From Fusobacterium perfoetens (GTDB lineage Bacteria; Fusobacteriota; Fusobacteriia; Fusobacteriales; Fusobacteriaceae), in the NCBI RefSeq assembly GCF_021531475.1, contig NZ_JADYTX010000017.1, positions 1 to 45,108 on the forward strand: a DNA stretch of 45,108 bases. The letters are read 5' to 3'. Each line of letters starts with the position of its first letter. The first letter of the stretch is position 1. Of this stretch, positions 8,216 through 38,518 are shown one piece after another. A model generated the notes under the pieces. It was not told the DNA's origin and made no database searches. It saw only the letters and a program-made list of their open reading frames with translations. Position numbers and translations under genes: made by a program.

Positions 8216-8914
8216 ATGAAAAAAATAGATTTTAAAGGAAGTGTTGTATTAAATCCAGTGCCAGTGGTTTTAATAACTAGTAAAAACAGTGAGGGAAAAG
8301 AAAATGTATTTACAGTTGCTTGGACTGGGACAATATGTACAAAACCTCCAATGCTTTCAATCTCTATAAGACCTGAAAGATTATCTTATGAGTATATAAA
8401 AGAAAGTCAAGAGTTTATAGTAAATCTACCGACAGTGGCTCTTACAAAGGAAACAGATTTTTGTGGAGTTCGTTCTGGAAGAGTTGTTGATAAGATAAAA
8501 GAGATGGGATTTACAATGAAAGAGGGAGAACAGGTTGGTTGTTCATATATAGATGAGTGTCCAATAAATATTGAGTGTCGTGTAAAAAGTATTATCCCTC
8601 TTGGAACTCACGATCTGTTTTTGGCAGAGGTTTTGACTTCTCATATAGATGAAAATCTTTTAGATGAAAATGGAAAGATACATTTTGAAGAGGCAAACCT
8701 AATAAACTATTGTCATGGAGAATATTTTCCTATGTCTAAAAAAGTTTTAGGAAGTTTTGGATTTTCTGTTATGAAAGAAAAAACAAAGATAAAAAAGGGG
8801 TTGGTTAATAAAAAAGCTCCTAAAAAAACAGAAGAGAATAAACAAACAGAGGAAAAACCTAAAAAAAGAAAATATGGAAACCGTATGAAAAAGAAAAATG
8901 CTTTAAATAAATAA
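8216..8914 (+). CDS. Flavin reductase-like FMN-binding protein with lysine-rich tail
   Basis: A 232-aa protein. Residues 1-180 form a split-barrel FMN-binding domain of the flavin reductase-like/DIM6-NTAB family: NPVPVVLITS, NVFTVAWTGTICTKPPMLSISIRP, EFIVNLPT. The last 50 residues are a lysine-rich, low-complexity tail that the family does not need and that could bind nucleic acid. AAGGAG precedes the start. It lies 12 bp after thiEM, in the same orientation, so it is probably cotranscribed, but no role in thiamine metabolism follows from that. The substrate is unknown. Confidence 0.8.
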   Translation: MKKIDFKGSVVLNPVPVVLITSKNSEGKENVFTVAWTGTICTKPPMLSISIRPERLSYEYIKESQEFIVNLPTVALTKETDFCGVRSGRVVDKIKEMGFTMKEGEQVGCSYIDECPINIECRVKSIIPLGTHDLFLAEVLTSHIDENLLDENGKIHFEEANLINYCHGEYFPMSKKVLGSFGFSVMKEKTKIKKGLVNKKAPKKTEENKQTEEKPKKRKYGNRMKKKNALNK

Positions 8915-8988
8915 TTTTTGGTTAGATATAAAAAAATTTTTCTAATAAAATTGAAAAAATAGCTATTTTCATAAAAAAATAATAATCA

Positions 8989-9018
8989 TTGGAAAAATTA
9001 TAGAAAATATGTTAGAAT
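8989..9018 (+). promoter_or_regulatory. Candidate promoter of the DUF1846 gene
   Basis: TTGGAA (8989-8994), 18 bp, TAGAAT (9013-9018). A 14-bp palindrome, AAAATAGCTATTTT, lies just upstream at 8956-8969. The promoter match is moderate and the palindrome is of unknown use. Confidence 0.4.
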
Positions 9019-9053
9019 GTGTGGTTGATAAAATTTATTATAAGGAGATATTT

Positions 9054-10574
9054 ATGAAAATAGGATTTGATCACAATAAATACCTTGAAGAACAATCTAA
9101 ATTTATTTTGGAAAGAGTAAATAATTATGATAAGTTATATTTAGAATTTGGTGGAAAATTATTTTTTGATTTACATGCAAAAAGAGTTTTACCGGGATTT
9201 GATGAAAATGCTAAAATAAAACTATTGCATAGATTAAAAGAAAAAGTAGAGGTTATTATCTGCGTATATGCTGGGGATATTGAGAGAAACAAAATCAGAG
9301 GAGATTTTGGAATCACTTATGATATGGACGTTTTAAAGCTTATTGATGACCTTAGAGATTATGACTTACAAGTAAATAGTGTTGTAATAACAAGATTTGA
9401 AGATCAGCCAGCAACAAAAGTATTCATAAATAAACTTGAGCATAGAGGAATAAAAGTATATAGACACAGAACAACAAAAGGTTATCCAACAGATGTTGAT
9501 ACAATAGTAAGTGAAGAAGGATATGGAAAAAATCCTTACATTGAAACAACTAAACCAATAGTAGTTGTTACAGCTCCAGGACCTGGAAGTGGAAAACTTG
9601 CTACTTGCTTAAATCAACTTTATCACGAAGGAAAAAAAGGAATAAAAGCAGGATATTCTAAATTTGAAACTTTCCCTGTTTGGAACGTTCCTTTAAAACA
9701 CCCTTTAAATATAGCTTATGAGGCAGCAACTGTTGATTTAAAAGATGTAAATATGATAGACCCATTCCATTTAGAGGCTTATGGAAAAATGGCAGTAAAC
9801 TACAACAGAGACGTTGAGGCTTTCCCAGTTCTTAAAAGAATAATCGAAAGAATAACAGGAAATCCATCTGAATATAAATCTCCAACAGATATGGGAGTAA
9901 ATAGAGTTGGATATGGAATAATTGATGATGAAGTTGTAAGACGTGCATCAGAACAAGAAGTAATCAGAAGATATTTAAACGCTGGTTGTGAATATAAAAA
10001 AGGATATATCGACCAAGAAACTTTCCAAAGAGCTAGAATGATAATGGAAGGTCTTCAACTTAAAGAGGAAGATAGAGCAGTTTTAGTAGCAGCTAGAAAA
10101 CGTTTGGAAAAAATAAAAAAAGCTAATAAAAATAATTTGAATAAAACAATGCCATCAGCTGTGGCAATTCAATTAGATGATGGAACTTTAATAACTGGTA
10201 AGAGTTCAGAAACAATGTGTGCAGCAGCATCAGCACTTTTAAACTCTGTAAAATATCTAGCTGGTCTTGAAGATGAAGTTCATTTACTTGCTCAAGAAAC
10301 TTTAGAGCCTATAATGAATTTAAAAATTAATAACTTTGGAAGTAAAAAAGCTACTCTTAACTGTGAAGAAGTATTAATAGCATTAAGTATTTGTGCTTTA
10401 ACAGATGAAAGAGCTAAAAATGCAATAGAACAACTTCCAAAATTAAAAGGTTCTCAAGCTCACTCTACTATAATTTTAGGAAAAGTAGATGAACAACTTT
10501 TAAGAAAACTTGGAATGGACGTAACTTGTGATATGGTATTCCCAACAGAGAACTTATACTATAACGAATTGTAA
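9054..10574 (+). CDS. DUF1846 (UPF0371) family protein
   Basis: A 506-aa protein of the usual length for DUF1846, a family found across Firmicutes and Fusobacteria. Recognisable segments are the N-terminal [12 protein letters not shown]...[32 protein letters not shown] (a P-loop-like glycine stretch around residue 180), and [16 protein letters not shown]. Structures exist for the family but no established biochemical role; a nucleotide or phosphate-binding enzyme is plausible from GPGSGKLAT. The start at 9054 follows AAGGAG (9043-9048); the longer frame from 9009 has no ribosome site. It has its own promoter and terminator, so it is probably monocistronic. Confidence 0.85.
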
Positions 10575-11585: not shown

Positions 11586-12011
11586 ATGTATAGTTTAGTA
11601 AGTGAAGCAAGTTTTGATAGTGCACATTTTTTAGCACAATATGAGGGAAAATGTAGAAATATCCACGGACATCGTTGGACTGTAAAAGTTGAAATATTTG
11701 GAGAAAAACTTCAGGAAAATGGAAGTAAAAGAGAAATGCTTATTGATTTCGGAGAACTAAAAAGTGAATTAAAAAAACTAGTAGATTTTTATGATCATTC
11801 TCTTATTATTGAAAAAAATACAATGAGAAAAATTACTTTGAATGCTCTTAAGGAAGACGGATTCAGAATTATAGAGGTTGAGTTTAGACCGACTGCAGAA
11901 AATTTTGCAAAAAATTTTTATGATTATTTTATAGAAAAAGGTTTTTCTGTAAAAAGTATTTCTGTTTATGAAACACCGAATAATTGTGCTATATACAGTG
12001 AGATGATGTAA
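11586..12011 (+). CDS. queD: 6-carboxy-5,6,7,8-tetrahydropterin synthase
   Basis: A 141-aa PTPS-fold enzyme that converts 7,8-dihydroneopterin triphosphate to CPH4, the second step of queuosine precursor synthesis. Zinc ligands H14 (FDSAHFL) and H27/H29 (NIHGHRW), catalytic C23 (GKCRN), and the later DH (FYDHS) and ETPNN motifs are visible. The protein begins where other QueD proteins begin, supporting the ATG at 11586 despite the distant ribosome site. The stop codon directly abuts the queE start. First gene of queD-queE-folE-queC-queF. Confidence 0.93.
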   Translation: MYSLVSEASFDSAHFLAQYEGKCRNIHGHRWTVKVEIFGEKLQENGSKREMLIDFGELKSELKKLVDFYDHSLIIEKNTMRKITLNALKEDGFRIIEVEFRPTAENFAKNFYDYFIEKGFSVKSISVYETPNNCAIYSEMM

Positions 12012-12680
12012 ATGATAAATTATAAAGTTGTTGAAATTTTTGAAAGTATTAATGGAGAGGGGAAAAAAGCAGGACAATTAGCACTTTTTATAAGATTTCA
12101 AAAATGTAATTTAAATTGCAGTTATTGTGATACAAAATGGGCAAACAGCGATGATTCTCCTTATACTCTTATGAATTTGGAAGAATTATACAAAAAAGTT
12201 GTGGAAAGTGGGATAAAGAACGTAACAATTACAGGAGGAGAGCCACTTCTTCAAGAAAATATTGAAATATTTTTAAAAAAGTTAGCTGAAAATCCCGAAA
12301 TAAATGTTGAAATAGAAACAAACGGAAGTATAAATTTAAAAAGGTTTGGAGAAATAAAAAATGCTCCATCATTTACAATGGATTATAAACTTCCAAAAAG
12401 TAATATGGAAAAATTTATGGATCTAGAAAATTTTAAATATTTAAAAGAGAAAGATACCGTAAAGTTTGTAGTAAGCAATATTGATGATCTTGAGAGAGCG
12501 AGGGAAATAATTGAAAAATATTCTCTTGTTGAAAAATGTGCAGTATATATAAGTCCTGTTTTTGGAAAGATAGAATTGTCTTCCATGGTTGATTTTATGA
12601 AAAAATATAAAATGAACGGTGTAAATATGCAATTACAAATTCATAAAATAATTTGGGACCCAGAAACAAAAGGAGTTTAA
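12012..12680 (+). CDS. queE: 7-carboxy-7-deazaguanine synthase (radical SAM)
   Basis: A 222-aa radical SAM enzyme that rearranges CPH4 to 7-carboxy-7-deazaguanine. The [4Fe-4S] cluster motif is C32-x3-C36-x2-C39 ([12 protein letters not shown]). Before it lies [20 protein letters not shown], which is typical of QueE, and after it the glycine-rich [10 protein letters not shown] for SAM binding. Length fits the compact QueE type. Start and queD stop are adjacent with no gap, implying coupled translation. It uses the QueD product and hands its product to QueC, both encoded in this operon. Confidence 0.93.
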
Positions 12681-12682
12681 AG

Positions 12683-13255
12683 ATGGATACAGAAGCAATA
12701 AAATTTCATATAAAGGGATTGATTACAGCTTTGGGAGAAAATTCTGAAAGAGAAGGTCTGAAAGAAACTCCAGAGAGAGTTGCAAAAATGTTTGAAGAGA
12801 TTTTTGAGGGAACAAAATATACAAATGATGAGATTGTCTCTATGTTTAATAAAACTTTTGAAGATGATGTGGTTTCAGAAAATGAAAATATGGTTATCGT
12901 GAGGGATATTGATATTTTTAGTTTTTGCGAACACCATTTAGCACTTATGTATGATATGAGTGTAACAGTTGCTTATATTCCAAAAGGAAAAGTAATCGGA
13001 CTAAGCAAAATTGCAAGAATATGTGATATGGTGAGCAAAAGGCTTCAACTTCAAGAGAGAATAGGAAAAGATATAGCTTACATAATGGAAAAAGTTACAG
13101 GCTCTTCAGATGTAGCAGTTTTGATAAAAGGAAAACATAGTTGTATGACAATGAGAGGAATTAAAAAAAATAATAGTTTTACAGAAACAATTGTTTTTAA
13201 TGGAAAATTTAAAAATAATTTTATGTTGCAAAATAAATTATACAACATGATTTAG
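12683..13255 (+). CDS. folE: GTP cyclohydrolase I
   Basis: A 190-aa enzyme that opens GTP to dihydroneopterin triphosphate, the entry step for both folate and queuosine. Zinc ligands C82 and H85 (FCEHHLALM) and C154 ([10 protein letters not shown]) are present, plus LSKIARI and the [10 protein letters not shown] helix. The start at 12683 follows AAAAGGAG (12668-12674), 2 nt past the queE stop. Its place between queE and queC indicates it is dedicated here to the queuosine pathway. It would be switched off with it by preQ1. Confidence 0.95.
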
Positions 13256-13264
13256 GAGGAAAGA

Positions 13265-13975
13265 ATGAAAGCGTTGATTTTATTTAGTGGTGGAATAGAT
13301 AGTACAACTTGTTTAGCAATGGCTATTGAAAAATATGGAAGAGAAAATGTTATTGCTTTAAGTACTTTGTATGGACAAAAACATACAAAAGAATTAAAGG
13401 CAGCAAGGGATATAGCAAAATATTATAATGTAGAACTTTTAGAAATTGATTTGACAAAAATATTTGCATATAGTAGCTGTTCTTTGTTGGCTCATTCAGA
13501 TAAAAAAATACCACATAGCAGTTATGCAAATCAGTTGAAAGAAGCAGAAGGAGAAACAGTTTCAACTTATGTTCCTTTCAGAAATGGATTATTTTTGTCA
13601 GTGGCAGCAAGTATAGCACTTTCTAAAGATTGTGATGTCATTTTATACGGAGCTCACGGTGATGATGCAGCAGGAAATGCTTATCCTGACTGTAGCAAAG
13701 AATTTAACGATGCTATAAATTTGGCAATTTATGAGGGAAGTGGAAAAAAATTAAAAGTCGAAGCTCCTTTTGTAGATATGCATAAAAAAGATATAGTAAA
13801 AATTGGACTTGATTTAAAAGTACCATATGAATTAACGTGGAGCTGTTATGAAGGAAAAGAATTTTCATGTGGAGAATGTGGAACTTGTATAGATAGAGAA
13901 AGAGCTTTTGAATTAAATGGGACAGTTGACCCATTGGTAAAATTAAGGGAGGAAAAAAATGAGAGAATTAGATAA
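13265..13975 (+). CDS. queC: 7-cyano-7-deazaguanine (preQ0) synthase
   Basis: A 236-aa ATP-dependent enzyme that turns 7-carboxy-7-deazaguanine plus ammonia into preQ0. The PP-loop motif is SGGIDSTT (residues 8-15). The C-terminal zinc site uses the cysteines in [32 protein letters not shown] is the substrate-binding stretch typical of QueC. AGGAGG lies directly upstream. The 3' end overlaps queF by 17 nt. Confidence 0.95.
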
Positions 13976-14441
13976 TTTAACACTTTTAGGAAATCAAGGA
14001 GTGAAATATCCTCGGGATTATGCACCTGAGGTGCTAGAAACTTTTGATAATAAACATGTTGAAAATGACTATTTTGTAAAATTTAATTGTCCTGAGTTTA
14101 CAAGCCTTTGTCCAATCACAGGTCAGCCTGATTTTGCAAATATAGTAATTTCTTATGTGCCAAATATAAAAATGGTTGAAAGTAAATCTTTAAAATTGTA
14201 TTTATTTAGTTTTAGAAATCATGGGGATTTCCATGAAGATTGTATAAATATAATAATGAAAGACTTAATAAAGTTGATGGATCCAAAATATATAGAAGTA
14301 TGGGGAAAATTTACTCCAAGAGGAGGAATCTCAATTGATCCATACTGTAATTATGGAAAAAAAGGGACAAAATGGGAGGAGATAGCTTTTAATCGTATGT
14401 CTAACCACGATTTATATCCTGAAAAAGTAGATAATAGATAA
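13959..14441 (+). CDS. queF: NADPH-dependent preQ0 reductase
   Basis: A 160-aa unimodular (YkvM-type) QueF that reduces the nitrile preQ0 to the amine preQ1, the ligand predicted for the riboswitch at the head of this operon. Catalytic C51 ([12 protein letters not shown]), D58 and the E74-S-K-S-L-K-L-Y motif that binds NADPH/substrate are visible, as is [10 protein letters not shown]. The start overlaps queC and follows GGGAGG. As the last enzyme before tRNA insertion, it closes a feedback loop at the RNA level. No tgt, queA or queG lies nearby. Confidence 0.95.
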
Positions 14442-14518: not shown

Positions 14519-15133
14519 TTATTTCCATAAATATTTATTTTTTGGTCTTCCAATTTTTCCATAGATTATCTTCATATGAATTTTTTCACATTCAACAAGA
14601 TAATTCATATATTTATTGACTGTTTTAGGAGCTAGTCCAGTGATTTCAGAAATCTCTTCAATAGTTATATATCTATCAAGATTTTCCATTTTTTCTTTTA
14701 TCAGAATAATAGTGTTTTGGTTGATTCCTTTTCTATAATCAAAATTTAATTTTTCTTTTGATTTTTCATTAGTTTTTAGATGTACATTAACTCTTGAATA
14801 AAGATCCAAAACTTTTATTGGCTTAATAGCAAAATCATTTGCTCCAACTTCAAAGAATTGTTCAGCTACTTTTTCCTCTCCCTCAATAGTGAGAGCAATA
14901 ATAGGAACATCTTTGTTAATTTGACGAATAAGTTTTACTCCTAGAATTCCATTTATATAAGGAAGATGGTAATCAATAATAATGATATCTATATTATTAT
15001 CAGAATTTATTATTTTTAATCCCTCTTCTACATTATGAGCTACAAGAGTATCCCAATCTTTTATTTTAAAAAATTCAGAGATGGCAAAAAGTATCTCTTC
15101 TGAATCATCTATAATTAAAATCTTATTTTTCAT
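14519..15133 (-). CDS. DNA-binding response regulator
   Basis: A 204-aa regulator. The receiver domain (about 1-120) has acidic D9/D10, phospho-acceptor D54 (IIIDYHLPYI), T/S in IIALTIEG and K in FAIKPIK. A linker follows, then a C-terminal helix-turn-helix (about 145-204: YITIEEISEITGLAPKTVNKYMNYLVE), resembling the DNA-binding part of CitB/DcuR-type regulators. The ATG at 15133 follows AAGGAGAG and overlaps the kinase gene by 11 nt, so the pair is translationally coupled. Likely targets are the two repeat-bearing promoters at 16612 and 19137; this is inference from position and shared sequence. Confidence 0.88.
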   Translation of the reverse strand: MKNKILIIDDSEEILFAISEFFKIKDWDTLVAHNVEEGLKIINSDNNIDIIIIDYHLPYINGILGVKLIRQINKDVPIIALTIEGEEKVAEQFFEVGANDFAIKPIKVLDLYSRVNVHLKTNEKSKEKLNFDYRKGINQNTIILIKEKMENLDRYITIEEISEITGLAPKTVNKYMNYLVECEKIHMKIIYGKIGRPKNKYLWK

Positions 15134-16520
15134 TTTTAATACTCTCCTTTCCAAGAACTATAAAAAATTTAGTTCCATAATTTTTTTTACTTTTTACAAA
15201 GACTTTACTTTTATGTTCTTCAAGAACTTTTTTTACAAAATTTAATCCAATTCCAGATGAACTCTTAGTGGAATATCCTTTATTAAAAATATTTTTCATC
15301 TGAAATTTATCCATTCCAATTCCATTATCTTCAACAATAATTAAAACAGAAGAAGAGTAACTTTTAACAACAATATTTATTACTCCATCTTTTTTATTTC
15401 CAATAGCCTCATAAGAGTTTATTATCAAATTTATTATAGCTCTTGAAAAAACTATCTTATTTACTTTAAGTTTTATGTTAGGACAATAATTTTTAAATTT
15501 TATATAGTTTATTGAGTTATGAGTAGAAAGATAAGAGAAAATAAAATCAAAAACCTTTTGTAACTTTAAAGCATTTTTAGTAGAATCTCTTAAAATTTCT
15601 GAAATCATAATATTACATCTATCTAAAGAGGCATCAATTCTTTTGAAATAATCTAATTTTCTAGGATTTTCTTCGTCCATATTAAGAATCTCTACAAGAG
15701 TTCCTATTGAAAAAAGAGGAGTTTTTAAATCGTGTACTAAATATTGAATCTCTTTTAAATATCTATTTTCAGTTTCTTGTATGGCTAATTCTGAAAGAGT
15801 CTGATTTATCTGTTTTTCATTTTCGTAGATATTTTTTGTTTTCTCTTGATCAAGAAATAATAAGAGCAAAGTTATAGAGAAAATAAAAAATATAATGAAA
15901 AGACAAAATCCTATAAAATCTAATAAAAAAGAGGCATCTAAAAGATCAGCCATAGCTTTTAAATCAAAAAATATTTCACCAGTATTTGCATATTCTAAAA
16001 AGGAGAAATATTTAGTGATCTCGAGCCACTGTATTCCTATAAAGATTAAAAATAATACCATATTTCTTTTAAATAAACTAATATTTTTAAATCTTTGATT
16101 GGAGTGGATAGATATATATATCATTTCAAGAATAGCCACTTTTCCAAAATAATAATCCATATCATAATAATATTTATAAACTAAAAGATATATTATTTGA
16201 ATCAAGAAAAATCCAAATAAAATTTTAAGAAAATAATTCTGTTTTTTATTTAGTTCTATCTCAGTTGAATCCATTAGTAAAAATACAGACAAAAAAATTG
16301 GGAACAGAGTAAGAGTATTAAAAAAAACTAGATAAAAAGCAGAATAGATAAGATATTCAATACTCCATAAATCTACAATTTTATTAAAATACTTATAGAT
16401 ATTGAATATGTAAGGTAGCAAAAAATTTGGTAAGATAATACTAAAAGCCACCATAATGATTCCCCAAATAGATTCTTTTTTATTAAGTTTTATTTCAAAA
16501 AATTTATTTAAATTTTCCAT
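15123..16520 (-). CDS. Membrane sensor histidine kinase
   Basis: A 465-aa kinase. The N-terminal 225 residues hold six or seven hydrophobic segments with little extracytoplasmic sequence, suggesting it senses something in or near the membrane. A short coiled-coil leads to the H-box LVHDLKTPLFSIG (H263). The HATPase domain has NLIINSYEAI (N-box), EDNGIGMD (G1), FNKGYSTK (F) and SSGIGLNFVKKV (G2). The start is ATG 16520 with a GGGG run upstream; the TTG at 16532 is less likely. It is transcribed divergently from ggt and partners the response regulator that overlaps its 3' end. The signal is unknown. Confidence 0.9.
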   Translation of the reverse strand: MENLNKFFEIKLNKKESIWGIIMVAFSIILPNFLLPYIFNIYKYFNKIVDLWSIEYLIYSAFYLVFFNTLTLFPIFLSVFLLMDSTEIELNKKQNYFLKILFGFFLIQIIYLLVYKYYYDMDYYFGKVAILEMIYISIHSNQRFKNISLFKRNMVLFLIFIGIQWLEITKYFSFLEYANTGEIFFDLKAMADLLDASFLLDFIGFCLFIIFFIFSITLLLLFLDQEKTKNIYENEKQINQTLSELAIQETENRYLKEIQYLVHDLKTPLFSIGTLVEILNMDEENPRKLDYFKRIDASLDRCNIMISEILRDSTKNALKLQKVFDFIFSYLSTHNSINYIKFKNYCPNIKLKVNKIVFSRAIINLIINSYEAIGNKKDGVINIVVKSYSSSVLIIVEDNGIGMDKFQMKNIFNKGYSTKSSSGIGLNFVKKVLEEHKSKVFVKSKKNYGTKFFIVLGKESIKNEK

Positions 16521-16561
16521 AAATAGCCCCAAAATACTTAAAAATAATTATTCTATCTAAT

Positions 16562-16590
16562 ATTATAACTAAAAAATGAAATAATTGCAA
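16562..16590 (-). promoter_or_regulatory. Promoter of the two-component operon
   Basis: On the minus strand: TTGCAA (16590-16585), 17 bp, TATAAT (16567-16562), 42 bp upstream of the kinase start. Confidence 0.65.
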
Positions 16591-16611
16591 AAAAATAAAA
16601 AATATTCTTGA

Positions 16612-16676
16612 GAGAAAAAAGAGAAAAAAGAGAAAAAATAAAAATAAATTTACAAAACAAAAAAATGTAGTATACT
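16612..16676 (+). promoter_or_regulatory. Triple GAGAAAAAA repeat and promoter of the ggt operon
   Basis: GAGAAAAAA occurs three times in exact tandem (16612-16620, 16621-16629, 16630-16638). The promoter TTTACA (16649-16654), 16 bp, TATACT (16671-16676) follows. The third repeat starts 19 nt before the -35. The same array, distance and promoter type recur at 19137-19201. Position upstream of the -35 fits an activator binding site. Confidence 0.7.
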
Positions 16677-16748
16677 TATTAGTAAGAGAACAAAAAATAT
16701 TAAAAATAATCTTTTAAATTTTAAATAAAACATAAAGGGGGTAAGTTT

Positions 16749-18506
16749 ATGAAAAAAAGACTTTTTTTCGCAGCTGTTATAGCATCATTTGCATTAAGTT
16801 TAACAGCTTGTAGTGGATCATCTAAAAAAGATGTTGTTAATCCTCAAAATTTTGTTGTAAAAGAGGTAAAGGATTGGAGACCTTATGATGCTCAAGGAGA
16901 AATGATAAGGGAAGATAGGGGAGCTTATGGAAAAGTAGGAATTGTTTCTACAAGTAAATTTGAAGCAAGTAAAATAGGACTTGATATAATTAAAAAAGGT
17001 GGAAATGCTATTGACGCTGCAGTAGCTGCTGGATTTGCTTTAGGAGTATGTGAACCTAACTCATCTGGACTTGGTGGTGGAGGATTTATGACAATCAGAA
17101 TCGCCAAAACAGGTGAAACTATATTTATAGACTTTAGAGAAAGAGCTCCTAAAAAAGCAACTGCAGAGATGTGGAAAGTTGACAAAGATGGAAAAGTAGT
17201 AGGAAATCAAAAGAAAGAGGGAGGAAAAGCAGCAGGTATCCCTGGTGAAGTTGCAGGACTTTTATATGCCCTTGAAAAATATGGAACAATGTCAAGAGAG
17301 GAAGTAATCAGACCTTCAGTTAATTTAGCAAGAAATGGATTTTATGTAACTCCTACATTATCAGGAGATATGAAAAATCAATTTGATATGATGGAAAAAT
17401 ATCCAGAAACTGGAAAAGTATTTTTAAATGATGGATTCCCATATGAAGTTGGAGAAAAATTTACTAATCCAGATATGGCAAAAACTTTAGAAATAATAAT
17501 AGAAAAAGGTAAAGATGGATTCTATAAAGGTGAAGTAGGAAAAGCTATAGTTAAATCTTTAAATAAACACGATGGATTATTTACAATGGAAGATTTAGCA
17601 AACTATAAACCTATTATTAGAAAACCAGTTGTAGGAAATTATAGAGGTTATGAAATAATTTCTTCTCCATCTCCAAGTTCTGGTGGAGCAATAGTAATTG
17701 AAATATTAAATATCTTAGAAAACTTTAACGTAGGAGAAATGGAAGTTAACTCTCCAGAATATTTACATCTATTCTCTGAAGCATATAAATTAGCTTATGC
17801 TGATAGAGCAAAATATATGGGAGATAGCGACTATATTCCAGTTCCTATGAAAGGATTTGTATCAAAAGATTATGCTAAAGAAGTTTCTAAATATATAGAT
17901 ATGAAACAATCTAAACCAAGTAAAGCTCACGACCCTTGGCAATATGAATCAGAAGATACAACTCACTACTCAATAGCTGACAAAGAAGGAAATATGGTTT
18001 CTATTACAAAAACAGTTAATGGATTATTTGGAAACAGTGTAGTTGTAGATGGATATGGATTTGTTTTAAATAATGAAATGGACGACTTTGTAACAGGAGC
18101 TGGACATCCAAACTCAGTTATGCCAGGGAAAACTCCTCTTAGCTCAATGTCACCAACAATAGTTCTTAAAGACGGAAAACCATTTATGGTTTTAGGTTCT
18201 CCAGGAGCAACTAAAATAATAAGTACAGTTTCTCAAGTAATCAGTAGAGTAATTGACCACGGAATGGGAATGCAAGAAGCTATCGATGCTCCAAGACTTT
18301 ATGATAATACATCTGATGTAATTAATGTTGAATCAAGAGTTTCTGAAAAAACAGTTAAGAAACTAGAGAAAATGGGACATAAAGTTGTAACAACTGAGGA
18401 TTGGGACAGAGGAATGGGTTCAGTTCAAGGTGTACTATATAGAGAAGATGGTCTATTAGAAGGTGGAGCAGACCCAAGAAGAGACGGAAAAGCACTAGGA
18501 TTCTAG
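16749..18506 (+). CDS. ggt: Gamma-glutamyltransferase, predicted lipoprotein
   Basis: A 585-aa precursor of an Ntn-hydrolase. An N-terminal signal with lipobox LTAC (lipidated C21) places it in the envelope. Autocatalytic cleavage should expose T404 in DTTHYS as the nucleophile, leaving a large and a small subunit. Further signatures are GGGGFMTIR, FIDFRERAP, NNEMDDF and PLSSMSPTIV. The family hydrolyses or transfers gamma-glutamyl groups from glutathione or gamma-glutamyl peptides; the related CapD and PghL/GGT enzymes act on poly-gamma-glutamate. Its neighbours pgsBCW make the latter plausible, but glutathione use is equally possible. GGGGG precedes the start; a 24-bp gap separates it from the DUF6305 gene. 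Confidence 0.92.
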   Translation: MKKRLFFAAVIASFALSLTACSGSSKKDVVNPQNFVVKEVKDWRPYDAQGEMIREDRGAYGKVGIVSTSKFEASKIGLDIIKKGGNAIDAAVAAGFALGVCEPNSSGLGGGGFMTIRIAKTGETIFIDFRERAPKKATAEMWKVDKDGKVVGNQKKEGGKAAGIPGEVAGLLYALEKYGTMSREEVIRPSVNLARNGFYVTPTLSGDMKNQFDMMEKYPETGKVFLNDGFPYEVGEKFTNPDMAKTLEIIIEKGKDGFYKGEVGKAIVKSLNKHDGLFTMEDLANYKPIIRKPVVGNYRGYEIISSPSPSSGGAIVIEILNILENFNVGEMEVNSPEYLHLFSEAYKLAYADRAKYMGDSDYIPVPMKGFVSKDYAKEVSKYIDMKQSKPSKAHDPWQYESEDTTHYSIADKEGNMVSITKTVNGLFGNSVVVDGYGFVLNNEMDDFVTGAGHPNSVMPGKTPLSSMSPTIVLKDGKPFMVLGSPGATKIISTVSQVISRVIDHGMGMQEAIDAPRLYDNTSDVINVESRVSEKTVKKLEKMGHKVVTTEDWDRGMGSVQGVLYREDGLLEGGADPRRDGKALGF

Positions 18507-18530
18507 TAAAAGTTTAGGAGGCATTAAAGA

Positions 18531-19064
18531 ATGAAAAAATTATTATTACTATCAACATTTTTATTATCAACAGCAGCAGCTTTAGCGGCAAACTTTGATA
18601 AACCAATACTATTGACATCAGTAGGACAAAGTGCAGATGTACAAATGGTAAAAGCATTATTAAAGAAAGGTCAAATAGAAGCAAACTTTGACAAATCAGT
18701 AACAGCAGAAGGATTAAAAGGAGAAAAAACTTTAATACTAGCAATAGGAGGAAGTTCAAAAGGTCTAGGAGCAGCAGGAATAAAAGCTGAAGATGAGATA
18801 GCAAGAACAGAAAAGTTAATAAAAGAAGCTAAAGCTCAAGGAGTAAAAATAATAGGAATGCATATAGGAGGAGCAGCAAGAAGAGGAGAATTATCAGATA
18901 AATTCGTAAACGCAGCAGCTCCACATTCAGACTATCTAATTGTAGTATCAGAAGGAAATAAAGACGGAGCATTTACAAAGATAGCAGAAGAAAATAAAAT
19001 ACCAATGGACACAGTAGAAAAAATAACAGGAGCTTTAGAACCACTAAAAAAAGCTTTTGAATAA
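18531..19064 (+). CDS. DUF6305-family exported protein
   Basis: A 177-aa protein with an N-terminal signal peptide (LLLLSTFLLSTAAALAA, cleavage near residue 19). The mature domain alternates beta and alpha segments in a Rossmann-like pattern: KPILLTSVGQSADVQMVKALL, KTLILAIGGSSKGLGAAG, VKIIGMHIGGAARRGELSD, SDYLIVVSEGNKDG. It matches my memory of DUF6305, which has no assigned function. Glycine-rich loops at the strand ends suggest ligand binding in the periplasm. It is cotranscribed with ggt and ends at a strong terminator before the permease gene. A solute-binding or enzyme-accessory role is inferred only from context. Confidence 0.7.
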   Translation: MKKLLLLSTFLLSTAAALAANFDKPILLTSVGQSADVQMVKALLKKGQIEANFDKSVTAEGLKGEKTLILAIGGSSKGLGAAGIKAEDEIARTEKLIKEAKAQGVKIIGMHIGGAARRGELSDKFVNAAAPHSDYLIVVSEGNKDGAFTKIAEENKIPMDTVEKITGALEPLKKAFE

Positions 19065-19089
19065 TAATTAATCTTGGTGAAAGTTATGA

Positions 19090-19130
19090 AATGGCAATCT
19101 CAGTTTTAAAACTGGGGTTGCTATTTTTCT
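19090..19130 (+). terminator. Intrinsic terminator between the ggt unit and the permease unit
   Basis: ATGGCAATCTCAGTTTT pairs with AAAACTGGGGTTGCTAT along its whole length (with G-U pairs), followed by a T-run. It separates the two transcription units. Confidence 0.9.
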
Positions 19131-19136
19131 AAAGAG

Positions 19137-19201
19137 AGAAAAAAGAGAAAAAAGAGAAATAAAAGTTAAAGATTTACAACAATAAAAAATATGGTATATT
19201 T
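19137..19201 (+). promoter_or_regulatory. GAGAAAAAA repeats and promoter of the permease operon
   Basis: Two exact GAGAAAAAA copies (19137-19145, 19146-19154) and a partial third (19155-19161). Then TTTACA (19174-19179), 16 bp, TATATT (19196-19201). The third repeat starts 19 nt before the -35, the same geometry as at the ggt promoter. The rest of the gap to the start codon (19202-19292) is an A-rich leader ending in a GGGGG ribosome site. Confidence 0.7.
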
Positions 19202-19292
19202 ATAGTAGGTAGTTAACAACCGAATTATACTAAAATAATATAAAAAAAATAAAAATAAAACAAAAAAATAATAAAAAAAGGGGGAAAGTTAT

Positions 19293-20564
19293 ATGTCAAT
19301 AGAACTTATACTATTTTTAACTATGGTAATTGTATTTATGGCATCTTGCTTTGTACTAAAATTACCAGTAAGTATTGCGATGGTTTTAGCATCGATTTCA
19401 GCTATGATTGTATCTGGAAACGGAATACCAGTAAGACATTTAGTAGAGGGGTGTTTCGGGTATATAGATACTATTTTGGTTATTGCAACAGCAATGGTTT
19501 TTATGAAGGTAGTCCAAGAAATTGGAACTTTAAATGCTTTGAGTGCTTCAATGCTTAAAAAGTTTCATAAAACACCAGCTATATTGTTAATAATTTTAAT
19601 GTTTATATCTATGTTCCCAGGAATGATAACAGGATCATCAACAGCATCTGTTTTAACAGCAGGAAGCATAGTAGCACCAATTTTAATGTTAATAGGAATT
19701 CCTATAACAGAAGCTGCTACAATAATCGCTATTGGTGGACTTTGTGGAATGATAGCACCTCCAGTAAACGTTCCAGCTATGATAATAGGTGGAGGAATTG
19801 ATATGCCATATGTAGGATTTACTATTCCACTTCTTATTTTAACAATACCAGTTGCTATATTCTCAGTTTTATATTTAGGATTAAAATATGTTAAAACTAT
19901 AGATTATGACAAGGTAGAAAAAGAGATTGACCAAACAGCTGTAACTGAGTATGGATTTAAACTATATATTCCAGTAATAGCAGTAGTTATATTAATGATA
20001 GTTGATAAAGTTTTCCCAAGAGTATTTGGATTAGGAATGCCATTAATATTTATGATAGGTACAGTAATTGGATTATTCTGTGGAAAGAAAGTTAATCTTG
20101 TAACAGTATCAAAAGAAGCGATAAATCAATGTTTACCAGTATTAGGAATATTAATGGGTGTAGGAATGTTTATTCAAACTATGACTTTAACAGGTGTCAG
20201 AGGATACATTGTTGTAAATAGTTTAAGTCTTCCATCAGCTATGCTATTTGTAGCTATGGCAATAACAATACCTTTATTTGGTGCAGTATCATCATATGGT
20301 GCAGCGTCTGTACTAGGAGTTCCTTTCTTAATGGCTTTCCTATCATACAACCAAATTATAACAGGATCAGCAATATCTTTTATAGCAGCTTTAGGAGATT
20401 TGATGCCTCCAACAGCATTAGCTGGAATATTTGCTGCTCAGATAGTTGGAATGGATAAATATACACCTGTTTTGAAAAAATCTTTGGTTCCCGGAATAGT
20501 AGTGATATTATATTCAATAGTTATAATATTATTATCTAACAAATTAGGAAGTATTATATTTTAG
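19293..20564 (+). CDS. DctM-like (TRAP large-permease/IT superfamily) transporter
   Basis: A 423-aa integral membrane protein with about 10-12 hydrophobic helices and re-entrant glycine/proline loops: GMITGSSTASVLTAGSIVAP, GGLCGMIAPPVNVPAMIIGGG, SSYGAASVLGVPFL, GDLMPPTALAGI. These double, pseudo-symmetric loops are characteristic of the IT superfamily including TRAP DctM subunits, which import organic acids with sodium. Canonical DctP (binding protein) and DctQ (four-helix) partners are absent; a 48-aa membrane protein follows instead. It has its own promoter with the GAGAAAAAA array. Given ggt and the hydrolase nearby, glutamate or another acidic amino acid is a reasonable substrate guess, not a demonstrated one. 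Confidence 0.75.
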   Translation: MSIELILFLTMVIVFMASCFVLKLPVSIAMVLASISAMIVSGNGIPVRHLVEGCFGYIDTILVIATAMVFMKVVQEIGTLNALSASMLKKFHKTPAILLIILMFISMFPGMITGSSTASVLTAGSIVAPILMLIGIPITEAATIIAIGGLCGMIAPPVNVPAMIIGGGIDMPYVGFTIPLLILTIPVAIFSVLYLGLKYVKTIDYDKVEKEIDQTAVTEYGFKLYIPVIAVVILMIVDKVFPRVFGLGMPLIFMIGTVIGLFCGKKVNLVTVSKEAINQCLPVLGILMGVGMFIQTMTLTGVRGYIVVNSLSLPSAMLFVAMAITIPLFGAVSSYGAASVLGVPFLMAFLSYNQIITGSAISFIAALGDLMPPTALAGIFAAQIVGMDKYTPVLKKSLVPGIVVILYSIVIILLSNKLGSIIF

Positions 20565-20592
20565 TTTTTTATAAAAAAAGAGGTGGATAAAA

Positions 20593-20739
20593 ATGATGAT
20601 GTATATATATTTAGCAATAATTTTATACGTTTTAGTATTAGTTGTGCTAAACTTACTAACTGAAAAAAATATACCAAAACAATTGAATGCTGCATTAGTA
20701 ATAATACCATTACTTTTAAGAATATTAAGAATAAAATAA
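20593..20739 (+). CDS. 48-aa small membrane protein
   Basis: Short open frame starting at ATG 20593 (or 20596), with AGAGGTGG upstream and stop TAA at 20737-20739. It has an N-terminal hydrophobic helix (YIYLAIILYVLVLVVLNLL) and a second hydrophobic stretch (ALVIIPLLLRIL) with a basic C-terminus, so one or two membrane passes. It lies 28 bp after the permease and 13 bp before the hydrolase, each with its own ribosome site. Its position suggests a small partner or stabiliser of the permease, in the place DctQ would take in a TRAP operon. I do not recognise a family. Confidence 0.65.
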   Translation: MMMYIYLAIILYVLVLVVLNLLTEKNIPKQLNAALVIIPLLLRILRIK

Positions 20740-20752
20740 GGGGGAAATAAAA

Positions 20753-21880
20753 ATGGAAGGAAATAAAAAAACAGGAATAGCTATAATTTTTCTCTCTTTA
20801 GCAATTGCATTTACTGCAGGAAAAGAATTTCTTAAAATGAGAGAGCCAGAACCTATTGTAAAAGGAGAGGGAGTAACATCTGTACAAAAATTAAGTGATT
20901 ATTTACCGTCGCTAAAAGGAACATCTGGGGATAGTGATGTCTATATATTTAAAGGAGAAGAACCAGGAGGAAGCACTTTAGTTCTTGGAGGAACTCACGG
21001 AAATGAGCCGTCAGGACTTATAGGTGCAACACTTTTAGTAGAAAATGCTAAAGTTAAAAAAGGAACTTTATATGTACTTCCAAGAACAAATGGAAGTGGA
21101 CTTACTCATAACGACCCACAAGAAGGTTCTCCACAAAGATATACAATAAAAACTCCTTTTGGAGAAAGATGGTTTAGATTTGGTTCAAGAGCAACAAATC
21201 CTTTAGATCAATGGCCAGATCCAGATGTTTATGTACACGCAGCTTCTGGACAAAATCTATCAGGAAGTGAAACAAGAAATATAAATAGAGCTTATCCTGG
21301 AAGACCAGACGGAACTTATACAGAAAAAGTGGCTTATGCTATCACTGAAATGATAAGACAAAATGATATTAATTTAACAATAGATTTACACGAAGCATCT
21401 CCAGAATATCCAGTTATCAATGCTATTGTTTCTCACGAAAGAGCAATGGGAATCGCTTCACAAGTGGCTATGAATTTAGAATTTGAAGATATAGCAATAA
21501 GTTTGGAACCATCTCCAGTAAGTTTAAGAGGATTAACTCATAGAGAGTTAGGAGACTACACAGATACTTATGCAGTTCTTATGGAATCTGCTAATGCCTC
21601 TCAAGGAAGACTTAGAGGAAAAACTGATGCTAATCTAGTTTTAACAGGAAAAGACCCAAGATATGTTGAAGCTGCAAAACTTGGAAGATTATATGTTCCT
21701 TATGATGAAAATGGACATCCATTAGAAGAAAGAGTAGGAAGACATCTTTCAGGAATTATGCAATTTATCACTGTTATGGGAGAAAATGAACCTGATAAAG
21801 AAATGATAGTTGAAGGTGTACCAATCTATGCTGACTTAATGGAAAATGGAATAGGACACTATTTAAAAGAAGTAAAATAG
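20753..21880 (+). CDS. Membrane-anchored zinc hydrolase of the AstE/AspA (succinylglutamate desuccinylase/aspartoacylase, M14-like) family
   Basis: A 375-aa protein with an N-terminal hydrophobic signal anchor (about residues 7-23), so the catalytic domain is outside the cytoplasm. Zinc ligands are H82 and E85 in GGTHGNEPSG and H213 in TIDLHEASPEYP. A glutamate in VLMESANAS (about 283) is the likely general base. The family removes acyl or amino-acid groups from N-acyl aspartate/glutamate or from peptides. Extracytoplasmic location distinguishes it from the cytosolic metabolic members. Together with ggt and a DctM-like permease it could release acidic amino acids for uptake. GGGGG precedes the start. 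The substrate is unknown. Confidence 0.75.
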   Translation: MEGNKKTGIAIIFLSLAIAFTAGKEFLKMREPEPIVKGEGVTSVQKLSDYLPSLKGTSGDSDVYIFKGEEPGGSTLVLGGTHGNEPSGLIGATLLVENAKVKKGTLYVLPRTNGSGLTHNDPQEGSPQRYTIKTPFGERWFRFGSRATNPLDQWPDPDVYVHAASGQNLSGSETRNINRAYPGRPDGTYTEKVAYAITEMIRQNDINLTIDLHEASPEYPVINAIVSHERAMGIASQVAMNLEFEDIAISLEPSPVSLRGLTHRELGDYTDTYAVLMESANASQGRLRGKTDANLVLTGKDPRYVEAAKLGRLYVPYDENGHPLEERVGRHLSGIMQFITVMGENEPDKEMIVEGVPIYADLMENGIGHYLKEVK

Positions 21881-21891
21881 AATAATAAAAT

Positions 21892-21935
21892 AAGCTGTTG
21901 CAGAAAAACTATTAAAAGTTCGCAACAGCTTTTTT
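21892..21935 (+). terminator. Intrinsic terminator before pgsB
   Basis: AAGCTGTTGC (21892-21901) pairs with GCAACAGCTT (21922-21931), followed by a T-run. It separates the hydrolase from the pgs genes; the 75 bp after it must hold the pgsB promoter, but I see no good -35. Confidence 0.9.
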
Positions 21936-22008
21936 ATAAAACATATAGAAAATATTATAAAAAAGATGTAAAATATTTGTGTTAGTAAATTTTTTATGGG
22001 AGGAATTT

Positions 22009-23151
22009 ATGGAAAAATTTATTTTAATTTTAATAAGTATGTATTTTGGTTATCTTTTTTATGAAAAAATGATGACTGAAAAAAGAAGAAAAAAATTGAA
22101 ATATGTGATTCACATAAATGGAATAAGAGGAAAATCTACAACTTCTAGATTGATTGACGCTGGAATGAGAGCTAGAGGATATAAAGTTTTTACTAAAATC
22201 ACTGGAACTTCTCCAAGAATTATAGATACTTTTGGAGAGGAAAAAGAGATTTTAAGAAAGGGAAAGGCAAATATAAGGGAGCAGATAAAGGCTATAAAAT
22301 GGGCTGACAGAGAAAATGCAGAAGTGTTAGTTTTGGAATGTATGGCAGTAAATCCAGAACTTCAAAATATCTGTGAAAATAAAATATTAAAAGCTGATAT
22401 TTGTGTAATCACTAATGTAAGAGAAGACCATCTTGATGAAATGGGGGAAAGTCTAGATGAGATAGCTAAGTCTTTAAGCAATACGATGCCTACTAATGGA
22501 GTCTTATTTACAAGTGATAAAAAATATGTAGATTTTTTTAGAGAGATAGGAAATAAAAAAGGAACAAAAGTTTTTTTGGCAGAAGAAAAAGAAGAATATA
22601 GGGAAATTGATTTTCCAAGTAATGTGGCAGTGGCTTTAGCAGTTTGTAAATATGCTGGAGTTGATGAAAAAAAAGCTTTAGAAAGAATGAGAAACTATTA
22701 TAAAGATCCTGGTTGTTTAAAGACTCTTTGTTATAAAAATCAAATGGACAAAAAAATATATTTTGTTAATGCTATGGCTGCTAATGATCCAAATTCAACT
22801 GAAATAATTTTAGAAAATATTTCAAAAAAAGATTATTTCAAAAATAGGAAATATTTATTGATTAATAACAGAAAAGATAGGGTTAGTCGTTGGGAACAGT
22901 ATATAAAATTTGCTAAAAAAATGGAAGAGAGATTTGATAAAATAATTGTTTCTGGAGAGAGTAAAGATTTGTTTTATAAATATATTACTAAAGAAAATAT
23001 TTCAAAAGATAAAATTGAAATATTAGAAGATAAAAATTATTTTGATAAAATTGATGAAGATATTTTAATAGTGGCAGTTGGCAATATTTGTGGATATGGA
23101 AAAAGTTTAGTGGAATATATAGAGAAAAAGGGGGAGGTTGTAGATGGTTAA
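22009..23151 (+). CDS. pgsB: Poly-gamma-glutamate synthase subunit PgsB/CapB
   Basis: A 380-aa ATP-dependent amide ligase related to Mur ligases. An N-terminal membrane helix (about 3-18) is followed by the nucleotide-binding loop HINGIRGKSTTSRLI (G38-T45). LVLECMAVNPELQ, VITNVREDHLDEMG and the C-terminal VAVGNICGYGKSLVEY are CapB hallmarks. With PgsC it polymerises glutamate through gamma-carboxyl links at the membrane. The start at 22009 follows GGGAGGA (21998-22004). Overlaps pgsC by 8 nt. Fusobacterium nucleatum is reported to produce polyglutamate, so a working system is expected. Confidence 0.93.
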   Translation: MEKFILILISMYFGYLFYEKMMTEKRRKKLKYVIHINGIRGKSTTSRLIDAGMRARGYKVFTKITGTSPRIIDTFGEEKEILRKGKANIREQIKAIKWADRENAEVLVLECMAVNPELQNICENKILKADICVITNVREDHLDEMGESLDEIAKSLSNTMPTNGVLFTSDKKYVDFFREIGNKKGTKVFLAEEKEEYREIDFPSNVAVALAVCKYAGVDEKKALERMRNYYKDPGCLKTLCYKNQMDKKIYFVNAMAANDPNSTEIILENISKKDYFKNRKYLLINNRKDRVSRWEQYIKFAKKMEERFDKIIVSGESKDLFYKYITKENISKDKIEILEDKNYFDKIDEDILIVAVGNICGYGKSLVEYIEKKGEVVDG

Positions 23152-23599
23152 TGAAATAATTATACTGGGGATTATAATAAGTATAATTTTTTATGAAATA
23201 ACTGAAATATCTCCAGGAGGGCTTATAGTACCAGCTTATTTAGCTTTTTATATGGATAATCCTAAAAGAGTGATAGTAACAATACTTTCTGGTATAATAA
23301 CATATTTTATTGTAAAAGTTATTTCAGATAGAACAATTCTTTATGGTAGAAGAAAATTTACAGTATATGTTTTGGTTGGATTTTTAATGAGAGAGGTGTT
23401 AAAACAATTTAATATCTTTTTAGAAGGATATGATATTTTTATTCTTGGAGGAAATATTATAGGGGTAATCATTCCAGCCATAATGGCTAGAGATATTGAA
23501 AGGAATGGAATGATAAAAAGTATATTTTCATTGTTGATGTTATCTACTTTTATAAAAGCTGTTGTAGAGATTGTATATGAGGTAGGTGGATTATATTGA
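23144..23599 (+). CDS. pgsC: Poly-gamma-glutamate synthase subunit PgsC/CapC
   Basis: A 151-aa membrane protein with four or five hydrophobic segments and the CapC signature EITEISPGGLIVPAYLAFY near the N-terminus, which also matches the usual family length of about 150 aa. It forms the synthase core with PgsB. It overlaps pgsB by 8 nt at its start and pgsW by 4 nt at its end, so the three are translated together. Confidence 0.93.
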   Translation: MVNEIIILGIIISIIFYEITEISPGGLIVPAYLAFYMDNPKRVIVTILSGIITYFIVKVISDRTILYGRRKFTVYVLVGFLMREVLKQFNIFLEGYDIFILGGNIIGVIIPAIMARDIERNGMIKSIFSLLMLSTFIKAVVEIVYEVGGLY

Positions 23600-24687
23600 G
23601 AACAAAAAAAGATTTAATTTTATTGGTACTTTGTAGCTTGATTTTAATTTTTATACATTATGGTTTAAAGAATAGAGATATAAAAGTAAAAAATAAATTT
23701 TATAATGAGATGGTTTTATCAGCTAAAAATATGGAAAAATTAACTAATGAAATAAAAGCTGAAAAAATAAGAAGAGGAATTTTCATTGATAAAAATATAG
23801 ATAAAAATCTTACTGGTCTTATGGGAGAAGAGTGGAGTGGAATATCTACTACTTTGGGAAATGAAGAGGCTAAAAGAACAAGTATAAATCCAGATTTTTC
23901 AGCTCTTATAGTAAAAAATCTTAAAGAACTAAAATTAAAAGAGGGAGATGTGGTAGTTGCCAATATGTCAAGCTCTTTTCCAGCTCTTAATCTTGCTCTT
24001 ATTTCAGCTCTTGATACATTAAAACTAAAGGGAGTTTTAATAAATAGTGTTGGTTCTTCTAATTATGGTGGAAATTTAGAAGAATTTGATTATCTCGATA
24101 TGGAAAATCATCTTTATAAAAAAGGGCTTATAAAAAATAGAAGTGAATCTTTTTCGTTTGGTGGAATAAATGATATTGGAAAAGAATTTGAGGAAAGTAC
24201 AAAAGAGAGAATAAAAGATAAAAATCAAGAATATGGGCTAAAATTTTTCTATGAGGAAGAACTTGATAAAAATATAGAGGAAAGGTACAGATATTATCAA
24301 GAAAAAAGTGGTGGAAAAATAGGAGCTTTTGTGAATGTGGGAGGAAATCTTTTATCTCTTGGAAAAAATGCTGATATAGTAATAAATACAAAAGTTTTAT
24401 TAAATAAAGAAAAAAATCTAAATGTAAAGGGTGGATTAGTTGGAAAGTTTTTAGAGGACAACAAACCAGTTTTATACCTTTTGAATATAAAAGGGATTGC
24501 TCTTGCAAATGGAATTTTAATCGATCCTGTTCCATTTCCTGAGATAGGAACTTCACAAGTCTATTATGAGAAACAGACAAATTTATCTTATAATATTGCA
24601 ATAGTAATTATTTTTTTGTTGTTTGTTGGAAAAATTTTATTTGTTAATAAAAAATTTAAAAAAGTAGAAAATATAGAAAAAACATAA
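23596..24687 (+). CDS. pgsW: Poly-gamma-glutamate system protein PgsW
   Basis: A 363-aa protein with an N-terminal membrane helix (about 7-23) and a C-terminal one (about 333-350), and a large domain between them. Segments such as TGLMGEEWSGISTTLGNEEAK, VVVANMSSSFPALNLALI, INSVGSSNYGGN and GAFVNVGGN match the PgsW family, which accompanies pgsBC in many bacteria that lack the classical pgsA/capA. Its exact role is unestablished; it probably takes the place of PgsA in assembly or export. The start at 23596 is a TTG inside the pgsC stop region. No capA/pgsA homologue is present here. Confidence 0.85.
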   Translation: MRTKKDLILLVLCSLILIFIHYGLKNRDIKVKNKFYNEMVLSAKNMEKLTNEIKAEKIRRGIFIDKNIDKNLTGLMGEEWSGISTTLGNEEAKRTSINPDFSALIVKNLKELKLKEGDVVVANMSSSFPALNLALISALDTLKLKGVLINSVGSSNYGGNLEEFDYLDMENHLYKKGLIKNRSESFSFGGINDIGKEFEESTKERIKDKNQEYGLKFFYEEELDKNIEERYRYYQEKSGGKIGAFVNVGGNLLSLGKNADIVINTKVLLNKEKNLNVKGGLVGKFLEDNKPVLYLLNIKGIALANGILIDPVPFPEIGTSQVYYEKQTNLSYNIAIVIIFLLFVGKILFVNKKFKKVENIEKT

Positions 24688-36790: not shown

Positions 36791-36810
36791 ATCATAGTTG
36801 AATTAATGAA

Positions 36811-36924
36811 GTAGAAACTCCCGTTTCTCACCTTACAGGCTACGAGCTTTTATAAGGTAACGAGTAATTAAAATAATAATTATTTTGATTTTATAACGGG
36901 GTTGGTCTGACCTCGTTTTTTTAT
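36811..36924 (+). promoter_or_regulatory. L20-type leader with terminator and antiterminator
   Basis: Terminator: AACGGGGT (36895-36902) with ACCTCGTT (36910-36917) and T-run. Competing pairing: CCCGTT (36820-36825) is complementary to AACGGG (36895-36900), and the same CCCGTT also lies in a 5' hairpin AGAAAC (36813-36818)/GTTTCT (36823-36828). A middle stem is ACCTTA (36830-36835)/TAAGGT (36853-36858). This fits autoregulation in which L20 stabilises a leader fold that permits termination, as known for the Bacillus infC operon. Confidence 0.75.
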
Positions 36925-36952
36925 ATGATTATCTTATTAGGAGGTGTCGGCT

Positions 36953-37456: not shown

Positions 37457-37485
37457 GTTTGTAATTTGAGAGGAGGAACACAAAA

Positions 37486-37695
37486 ATGCCAAAAATGAAA
37501 ACTCATAGAGGAACAGCTAAAAGAATCAAAGTAACAGGAAAAGGGAAATATGTTGCTAAACACTCAGGAAAAAGCCACATATTAACTAAAAAAACTAGAA
37601 AAAGAAAAAATAGAATGAAAAAAGACTTTGTAATTTTAGATAACGTGCATAAAACAGCTATGGTTAGATTATTACCATACGGAGTTGGAAGATAA
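37486..37695 (+). CDS. rpmI: 50S ribosomal protein L35
   Basis: A 69-aa basic protein: [36 protein letters not shown] and VRLLPYG, all standard for bL35. GAGGAGG precedes the start. Second gene of the conserved infC-rpmI-rplT operon, 29 bp after infC. Confidence 0.97.
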
Positions 37696-37732
37696 TTCGA
37701 TTTTCGGATATATAAATTAGAGGAGGATAATA

Positions 37733-38479: not shown

Positions 38480-38488
38480 GAAAAAAAG

Positions 38489-38518
38489 ATAAGGAGAAGT
38501 TGCATCTCCTTATTTTTT
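38489..38518. terminator. Bidirectional terminator
   Basis: AAGGAGA (38491-38497) pairs with TCTCCTT (38505-38511), with A-rich sequence before and T-run after, between convergent genes. Confidence 0.8.

Follow-up and report, generated by a model that had tools for sequence, protein, structure and literature searches.

A ten-gene locus of Fusobacterium perfoetens, lying at 14.5–24.7 kb of a 45,108-nt stretch of its DNA (hereafter the window, to which the coordinates below refer), may encode a single system by which polyglutamate would be made, cut, sensed, and retrieved; from its sequence and comparative data, we place the probability of this reading at roughly 0.5. The genes for a response regulator and a sensor histidine kinase lie on the minus strand, and the other eight lie on the plus strand in the order ggt (gamma-glutamyltransferase, GGT), the DUF6305 gene, a DctM-like permease gene, a gene for a 48-amino-acid protein, an AstE/AspA-type hydrolase gene, pgsB, pgsC, and pgsW. 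All ten were present, with open reading frames and, for all but the 48-amino-acid protein, family matches, where a first-pass annotation made from the letters of the window had placed them. The set is co-inherited, its enzymes carry the catalytic residues of their families, and a conserved, phased direct repeat, which is new here, precedes the ggt and permease promoters and is tied to the two-component genes. Because the ten-gene set recurs across several phyla with its own conserved control site, we regarded its parts as one system rather than as chance neighbors, and this make-cut-sense gene cluster looks like one undescribed system.

In a sample of 98 Fusobacteriota genomes, whose counts are not phylogenetically independent, strong PgsB (over the cut-off), DUF6305 (over the cut-off), and the close AstE-like hydrolase were each found in the identical 17 genomes at one locus, and no strong PgsB was found outside this locus in any of the 98. 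PgsW was present in 16 of the 17, the remaining locus (G012) being cut by a contig end, and the kinase and regulator genes stood beside the block in 16 as well, with G052 as the exception. The carriers span seven genera with nearly constant gene order, an additional GGT or an additional, shorter hydrolase being present in some; with such a scattered distribution over genera, the simple inheritance of an unchanging neighborhood is an unlikely explanation. GGT itself occurred in 23 of the 98 genomes, the present one having a single GGT gene. In the majority of the other Fusobacteriota, no more than about 20 bases separate the pgs genes from the hydrolase genes that precede them, and the split between hydrolase and pgsB seen here thus looks derived. 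In one of the loci (L101 of genome G028, 8217–10077), DUF6305 and the permease were apparently frame-broken, possibly through sequencing error, with the GGTs, hydrolase, and pgs genes intact.

A scan with the hydrolase alignment gave 197 relatives, of which the best 80 loci were analyzed; these came from Fusobacteriota, Bacillota, Spirochaetota, Synergistota, one deltaproteobacterial bin, and one Armatimonadota bin, and beyond Fusobacteriota the identical families recurred near the hydrolase in rearranged order. Outside Fusobacteriota, 33 loci extended 7.5 kb or more to each side of the hydrolase; of these, GGT was found in 32, DUF6305 in 31, the permease with the 48-amino-acid gene in 33, PgsB/PgsC/PgsW in 25, the kinase in 21, and the regulator in 22. 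The 48-amino-acid gene directly followed the permease gene in 70 of 71 tested loci, and the permease–48-amino-acid–hydrolase trio, contiguous in 64 of 70, varied least of all parts of the locus. Of 25 genomes without an adjacent PgsB, 19 encoded a strong one at another site: 16 of these scored over the cut-off, and the remaining three (G103, G104, and G121) reached 190, 219, and 222 bits. On these comparative grounds, the linkage of the gene set is strongly supported: ggt, DUF6305, the permease, the 48-amino-acid gene, the hydrolase, and pgsBCW do occur together in the 17 Fusobacteriota genomes and in other phyla, as one conserved unit, and the idea that they are neighbors only in this genome was clearly contradicted. 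Separate operons lying side by side by accident, as the separate promoter regions and terminators of this genome might suggest, would hardly have kept the same set through rearrangement of its order, and chance adjacency was rejected as extremely improbable.

The same counts bear on a serious rival explanation, namely, that GGT, the amidase, and the permease serve to forage for glutathione, gamma-glutamyl peptides, or polyglutamate supplied by food, the host, or other bacteria, with the PgsBCW coat merely co-inherited. Fusobacterium and Treponema have been reported as users of glutathione (PMC4808752, PMC12940168). In the sampled Fusobacteriota, however, all strong PgsB proteins belong to this locus and every genome with DUF6305 and hydrolase has PgsB, and beyond this phylum most hydrolase genomes keep PgsB even where it is not adjacent. 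Since foraging alone would not call for this association, the retention of PgsB with the hydrolase counts against this rival, which we consider rather unlikely. In Treponema vincentii (L113), the hydrolase shows 78% identity and is nested inside Fusobacteriota with starred support in the hydrolase tree, and the kinase and regulator are absent near the locus; acquisition of this locus by transfer is probable from the tree.

As to its control, the sequence GAGAAAAAAGAGAAAAAAGAGAAA was shared between positions 16612–16635 and 19136–19159, where 0.01 matches were expected in the window by shuffling, and no match with up to two mismatches was found in this genome beyond the ggt and permease sites. 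A reversed-pattern control for the repeat search was not independent, because the repeat is nearly the same read backwards. The first base of the repeat lay exactly 37 bp before a TTTACA, TTTACT, or TTTGCA −35 box in seven promoters including the two of the window, and a −10-like box occurred at +59/60 in all seven; two further promoters fit 37 bp plus one or two repeat units, the −10 position was kept without a clear −35 box in L105 and L104, and L098 did not fit the phasing. Related 9-bp repeats preceded the first ggt in the examined Fusobacteriota loci bearing the two-component genes (in a weaker form in L104), and were absent from the locus lacking these genes (L107) and from the stand-alone ggt genes L109 and L111. 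In a 22-genome search, exact and one-mismatch matches occurred almost solely at the locus, those with two mismatches being scattered elsewhere. A weight matrix trained on Fusobacteriota sites only (p < 0.01) matched 22 of the 37 loci that have kinase and regulator (18 of 33 as the independent count, L112 and L115–L117 belonging to Fusobacteriota, the training clade) versus 8 of 38 loci without them, several of these eight being cut by contig ends, with AT content and phylogeny as confounders of the comparison. The repeat tracks the two-component genes over genera and phyla, and the regulators of other loci and phyla aligned over their full length with the one encoded here. The repeat is probably the operator of the response regulator, and the regulatory link of kinase and regulator to the locus genes is well supported by these sequence comparisons. 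The proposal of the first-pass annotation that the kinase controls cutting and uptake is thus supported by a conserved phased repeat, which in this genome was found only at the ggt and permease promoters.

The features of the locus are summarized in Table 1. A HisKA/HATPase_c kinase and a regulator with receiver and helix-turn-helix (HTH) domains are encoded together and their pairing is conserved, identifying them as a two-component system. The locus had also been described as one 10-kb block, which held for the gene set and its linkage and failed for a single transcription unit, as strong hairpins followed by T runs divide the plus strand into three units, ggt–DUF6305, permease–48-amino-acid gene–hydrolase, and pgsBCW. 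The probable start codon of pgsB is ATG 22009 and not GTG 21979.

Table 1. Genes and candidate control features of the locus in the 45,108-nt window
Feature	Position	Strand	Basis or remark
Response regulator	14519..15133	−	Receiver PF00072 (Response_reg) 9.9e-22 and winged HTH; conserved GRPK tail
Sensor histidine kinase	15123..16520	−	HisKA 6.5e-09, HATPase_c 5e-14; N-terminal hydrophobic membrane region
Proposed regulator operator, (GAGAAAAAA)x3 direct repeat before ggt promoter	16612..16638	+	Seen only at locus sites genome-wide
ggt promoter-like site, TTTACA-16-TATACT	16649..16676	+	Spacing to repeat conserved
ggt, predicted secreted lipoprotein	16749..18506	+	PF01019 1.8e-174; TIGR00066 561.7 bits (cut-off 357.85)
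DUF6305 protein with signal peptide	18531..19064	+	PF19823 3.6e-58
Terminator-like hairpin then T run, DUF6305/permease gap	19084..19135	+	−22.1 kcal/mol
Second proposed operator copy, exact match, before permease promoter	19136..19159	+	37 bp from first base to TTTACA
Permease promoter-like site, TTTACA-16-TATATT, TG before −10	19173..19200	+	Spacing to repeat
DctM-like permease, ion-transporter type, 423 amino acids	19293..20564	+	PF06808 3.4e-10, 39.8 bits
48-amino-acid hydrophobic membrane protein	20593..20739	+	No family match
Membrane-anchored AstE/AspA-type zinc amidase (hydrolase)	20753..21880	+	Catalytic domain PF24827 2.6e-07
Terminator-like hairpin then T run, hydrolase/pgsB gap	21886..21940	+	−16.6 kcal/mol
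pgsB, ligase of poly-gamma-glutamate synthase	22009..23151	+	TIGR04012 417.9 bits (cut-off 222.7)
pgsC, membrane subunit	23144..23599	+	TIGR04011 134 bits (cut-off 96.45); PF14102
pgsW	23596..24687	+	TIGR04332 328 bits (cut-off 100)

Of the two putative cutting enzymes, GGT was assigned to its family by a score over the TIGR00066 cut-off together with the catalytic Thr of the small subunit. Its lipobox (the N-terminus reads LTAC) and its catalytic residue T404, both proposed previously, were confirmed, the small subunits of other solved GGTs starting at query residue 404. The lid loop is lacking, as only 15 residues separate NNxxDDF and PLSSM, the same as in Bacillus GGT 4y23, compared with 25 in E. 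coli, and all GGTs with a measurable loop were likewise without it. A connection between lack of the lid and activity on polymers has been described (PMC8062742, PMC9073855).

In the hydrolase, H82, E85, H213, E278, N178, and R179 were invariant in a 23-sequence alignment, conforming to an HxxE...H zinc site, a catalytic Glu, and an NR pair; these zinc, catalytic, and substrate-binding roles are presumed by us from aspartoacylase. A gamma-Glu-Glu linkage is an N-acyl-glutamate, the bond class cleaved by the AspA/AstE family, and by this analogy the hydrolase could cleave gamma-Glu-Glu bonds. It resembles aspartoacylase and succinylglutamate desuccinylase, which act on N-acyl amino-acid bonds, in its invariant zinc and catalytic pattern, but differs from them in being membrane-anchored and exported, as judged from its sequence, and in its linkage to polyglutamate genes. 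The phage polyglutamate hydrolase PghP (PF05908) is likewise a zinc enzyme cutting gamma-glutamyl links (PMC4497714), whereas the present hydrolase was assigned by Pfam to PF24827 and gave no PF05908 match at E ≤ 0.001.

The predicted location of both enzymes, a lipoprotein GGT and a membrane-anchored amidase next to the synthase, also fits a second serious rival, in which they would set the length of the polymer or attach it to an envelope acceptor, the permease would carry another cargo, and glutamate recovery would not be the purpose. There is precedent in a CapD-type GGT that anchors polyglutamate (PMC8062742), and the gene linkage fits such coat maturation equally well. The prominence of the permease–48-amino-acid–hydrolase trio as the most constant part of the locus and the position of the repeat here, before ggt and the permease and not before pgs, argue the other way, and we judged coat maturation to be unlikely.

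PgsB and PgsC scored over the curated cut-offs, which classified the synthase as PgsBC-type. No match to the third subunit PgsA/CapA (PF09587) was found in the genome of the window, while positive control genomes did match; given this absence and the presence of PgsW, the enzyme was classed as PgsBC-type with a different third subunit and not as PgsBCA. The AlphaFold2 model of PgsW (predicted local distance difference test score, pLDDT, 92.4) has an alpha/beta domain between two transmembrane helices, and the positive charges at both ends suggest that this domain faces outward. PgsW was not named by fold, the matches being generic alpha/beta with no significant PDB match (Foldseek, E ≤ 0.001).

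The permease is weakly similar to the isethionate permease 9pym of the tripartite ATP-independent periplasmic (TRAP) type. It shares with TRAP transporters (DctPQM) a weak DctM match and a small membrane partner, but the partner here has 48 amino acids and DUF6305 is a single alpha/beta domain, not of the DctP type; as DctM alone was matched among the locus proteins, with no DctP or DctQ family match, the pair was not classed as a TRAP transporter.

DUF6305 was predicted to form one alpha/beta domain (AlphaFold2 pLDDT 96.7), and its invariant residues include S15, K58, H92, R98, R99, and D104 (trimmed-construct numbering). Three assignments were not adopted: naming by fold, since generic alpha/beta matches give no function; an SGNH hydrolase, for which the Foldseek rows were weak (TM ~0.38); and a DctP-like binding protein, which is unsupported by the size, the single-domain fold, and the separate pairing with a kinase. 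Four Bacillota loci (L153, L161, L164, and L177) encode proteins of 564–618 amino acids with three tandem copies of DUF6305, which adjoin the permease, 48-amino-acid gene, and hydrolase.

DUF6305 was found in 13 of the 291 genomes sampled from the class Clostridia, two of which have PgsW. In the other 11, DUF6305 is more divergent, carries a hydrophobic stretch at its N-terminus, and lies outside this gene set; a related kinase adjoins it in nine of them, the contig ending just after DUF6305 in the other two. Since a related kinase stands beside DUF6305 also outside this locus, we read DUF6305 as a putative outer sensing part for that kinase family; these neighborhoods suggest a sensor partner of the kinase, which is the better reading than a transport part. 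A second type of cluster in Clostridia (L198–L209) runs peptide-binding protein, DUF6305-like protein, kinase, and regulator. The neighbors of the Clostridia DUF6305–kinase–regulator genes comprise family-5 peptide-binding protein, AbgT or DUF3798–ATP-binding cassette (ABC) transporter genes, and M20-type peptidases, a setting of peptide-binding, AbgT, and peptidase genes that favors the foraging alternative. In L198 and L200 a strong repeat match precedes a divergently transcribed operon, containing a peptidase and an ABC transporter in L198 and a permease in L200.

In the proposed one-system scheme, PgsB and PgsC with PgsW would act at the inner membrane, joining glutamate into a gamma-linked chain and exporting it; outside, the lipoprotein GGT would remove gamma-glutamyl units and the membrane-anchored zinc amidase, together with a second, shorter one in many species, would cleave N-acyl-glutamate bonds. 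The DctM-like permease with its constant 48-amino-acid partner would re-import the released acidic products, and the exported single-domain DUF6305 would report to the kinase on the gamma-glutamyl pool outside the cell. In turn, the response regulator would bind (GAGAAAAAA)n 37 bp before the −35 box and switch on ggt–DUF6305 and permease–48-amino-acid gene–hydrolase. The outcome would be a polyglutamate coat doubling as a retrievable glutamate store; we infer the identities of the substrates, sensing by DUF6305, activation rather than repression, and the storage role. Extended to anaerobes of several phyla, an external glutamate store with sensing by DUF6305 and a dedicated kinase, a new permease pair, and one conserved operator is put forward only tentatively.

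Several observations weigh against this scheme. The pgsBCW genes of the window lie behind a terminator and without an upstream copy of the repeat, so that there is no sign of kinase control of synthesis in this genome, which would suit the foraging alternative. Stand-alone GGTs outside the locus (L109 and L111) are also lid-less; absence of the lid loop therefore does not diagnose the substrate and was rejected as a locus-specific mark. The DUF6305 fold matched generic alpha/beta proteins (best Z 9.3, with tied rows), and in its other context in Clostridia the domain occurs without PgsW. No kinase lies near DUF6305 in T. vincentii L113, most other Spirochaetota loci, and Fusobacteriota G052, and sensing for this kinase is thus not its sole role, unless the kinase is encoded elsewhere in those genomes. 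Finally, 6 of the 25 hydrolase-locus genomes were without a strong PgsB, genome completeness figures not being given.

Polyglutamate has been studied mostly in Bacillus. The locus has in common with the Bacillus PgsBCA(E)/CapBCA and GGT/PgdS systems the PgsB and PgsC families and a secreted lid-less GGT, but has PgsW in place of PgsA/CapA and an AstE/AspA-type amidase in place of PgdS, and adds a dedicated permease, the 48-amino-acid protein, DUF6305, a linked two-component system, and an operator-like repeat. A make-then-degrade logic has been reported for polyglutamate in B. subtilis (PMC8062742), and polyglutamate production by F. nucleatum is reported as cited in PMC3815933 (Candela 2009). 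Literature searches, thin on subscription journals, returned mainly reviews and Bacillus work for polyglutamate with Fusobacterium, and nothing for DUF6305 or TIGR04332 by name, so that a prior description is possible. Many anaerobes, gut and oral groups included, may carry a PgsW-type system together with dedicated genes for cutting, uptake, and sensing, and the locus predicts which organisms should make the polymer. It also offers a testable role for DUF6305 and the 48-amino-acid protein and a directly testable candidate operator; if the proposal is true, DUF6305 would represent a new class of extracytoplasmic, kinase-linked sensors, as its first member.

Elsewhere in the window, the locus is directly preceded at 11586–14441 by queuosine-type open reading frames, named QueE-, FolE-, QueC-, and QueF-like by eye on the basis of their translations. 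At 38198–42735, small RelE-like and excisionase-like open reading frames and a 947-amino-acid primase/helicase-like one possibly represent a small integrated element, again by eye. An ordinary ribosomal protein L20 leader (Rfam RF00558, 64.1 bits) precedes infC-, rpmI-, and rplT-like open reading frames at 36803–38083.

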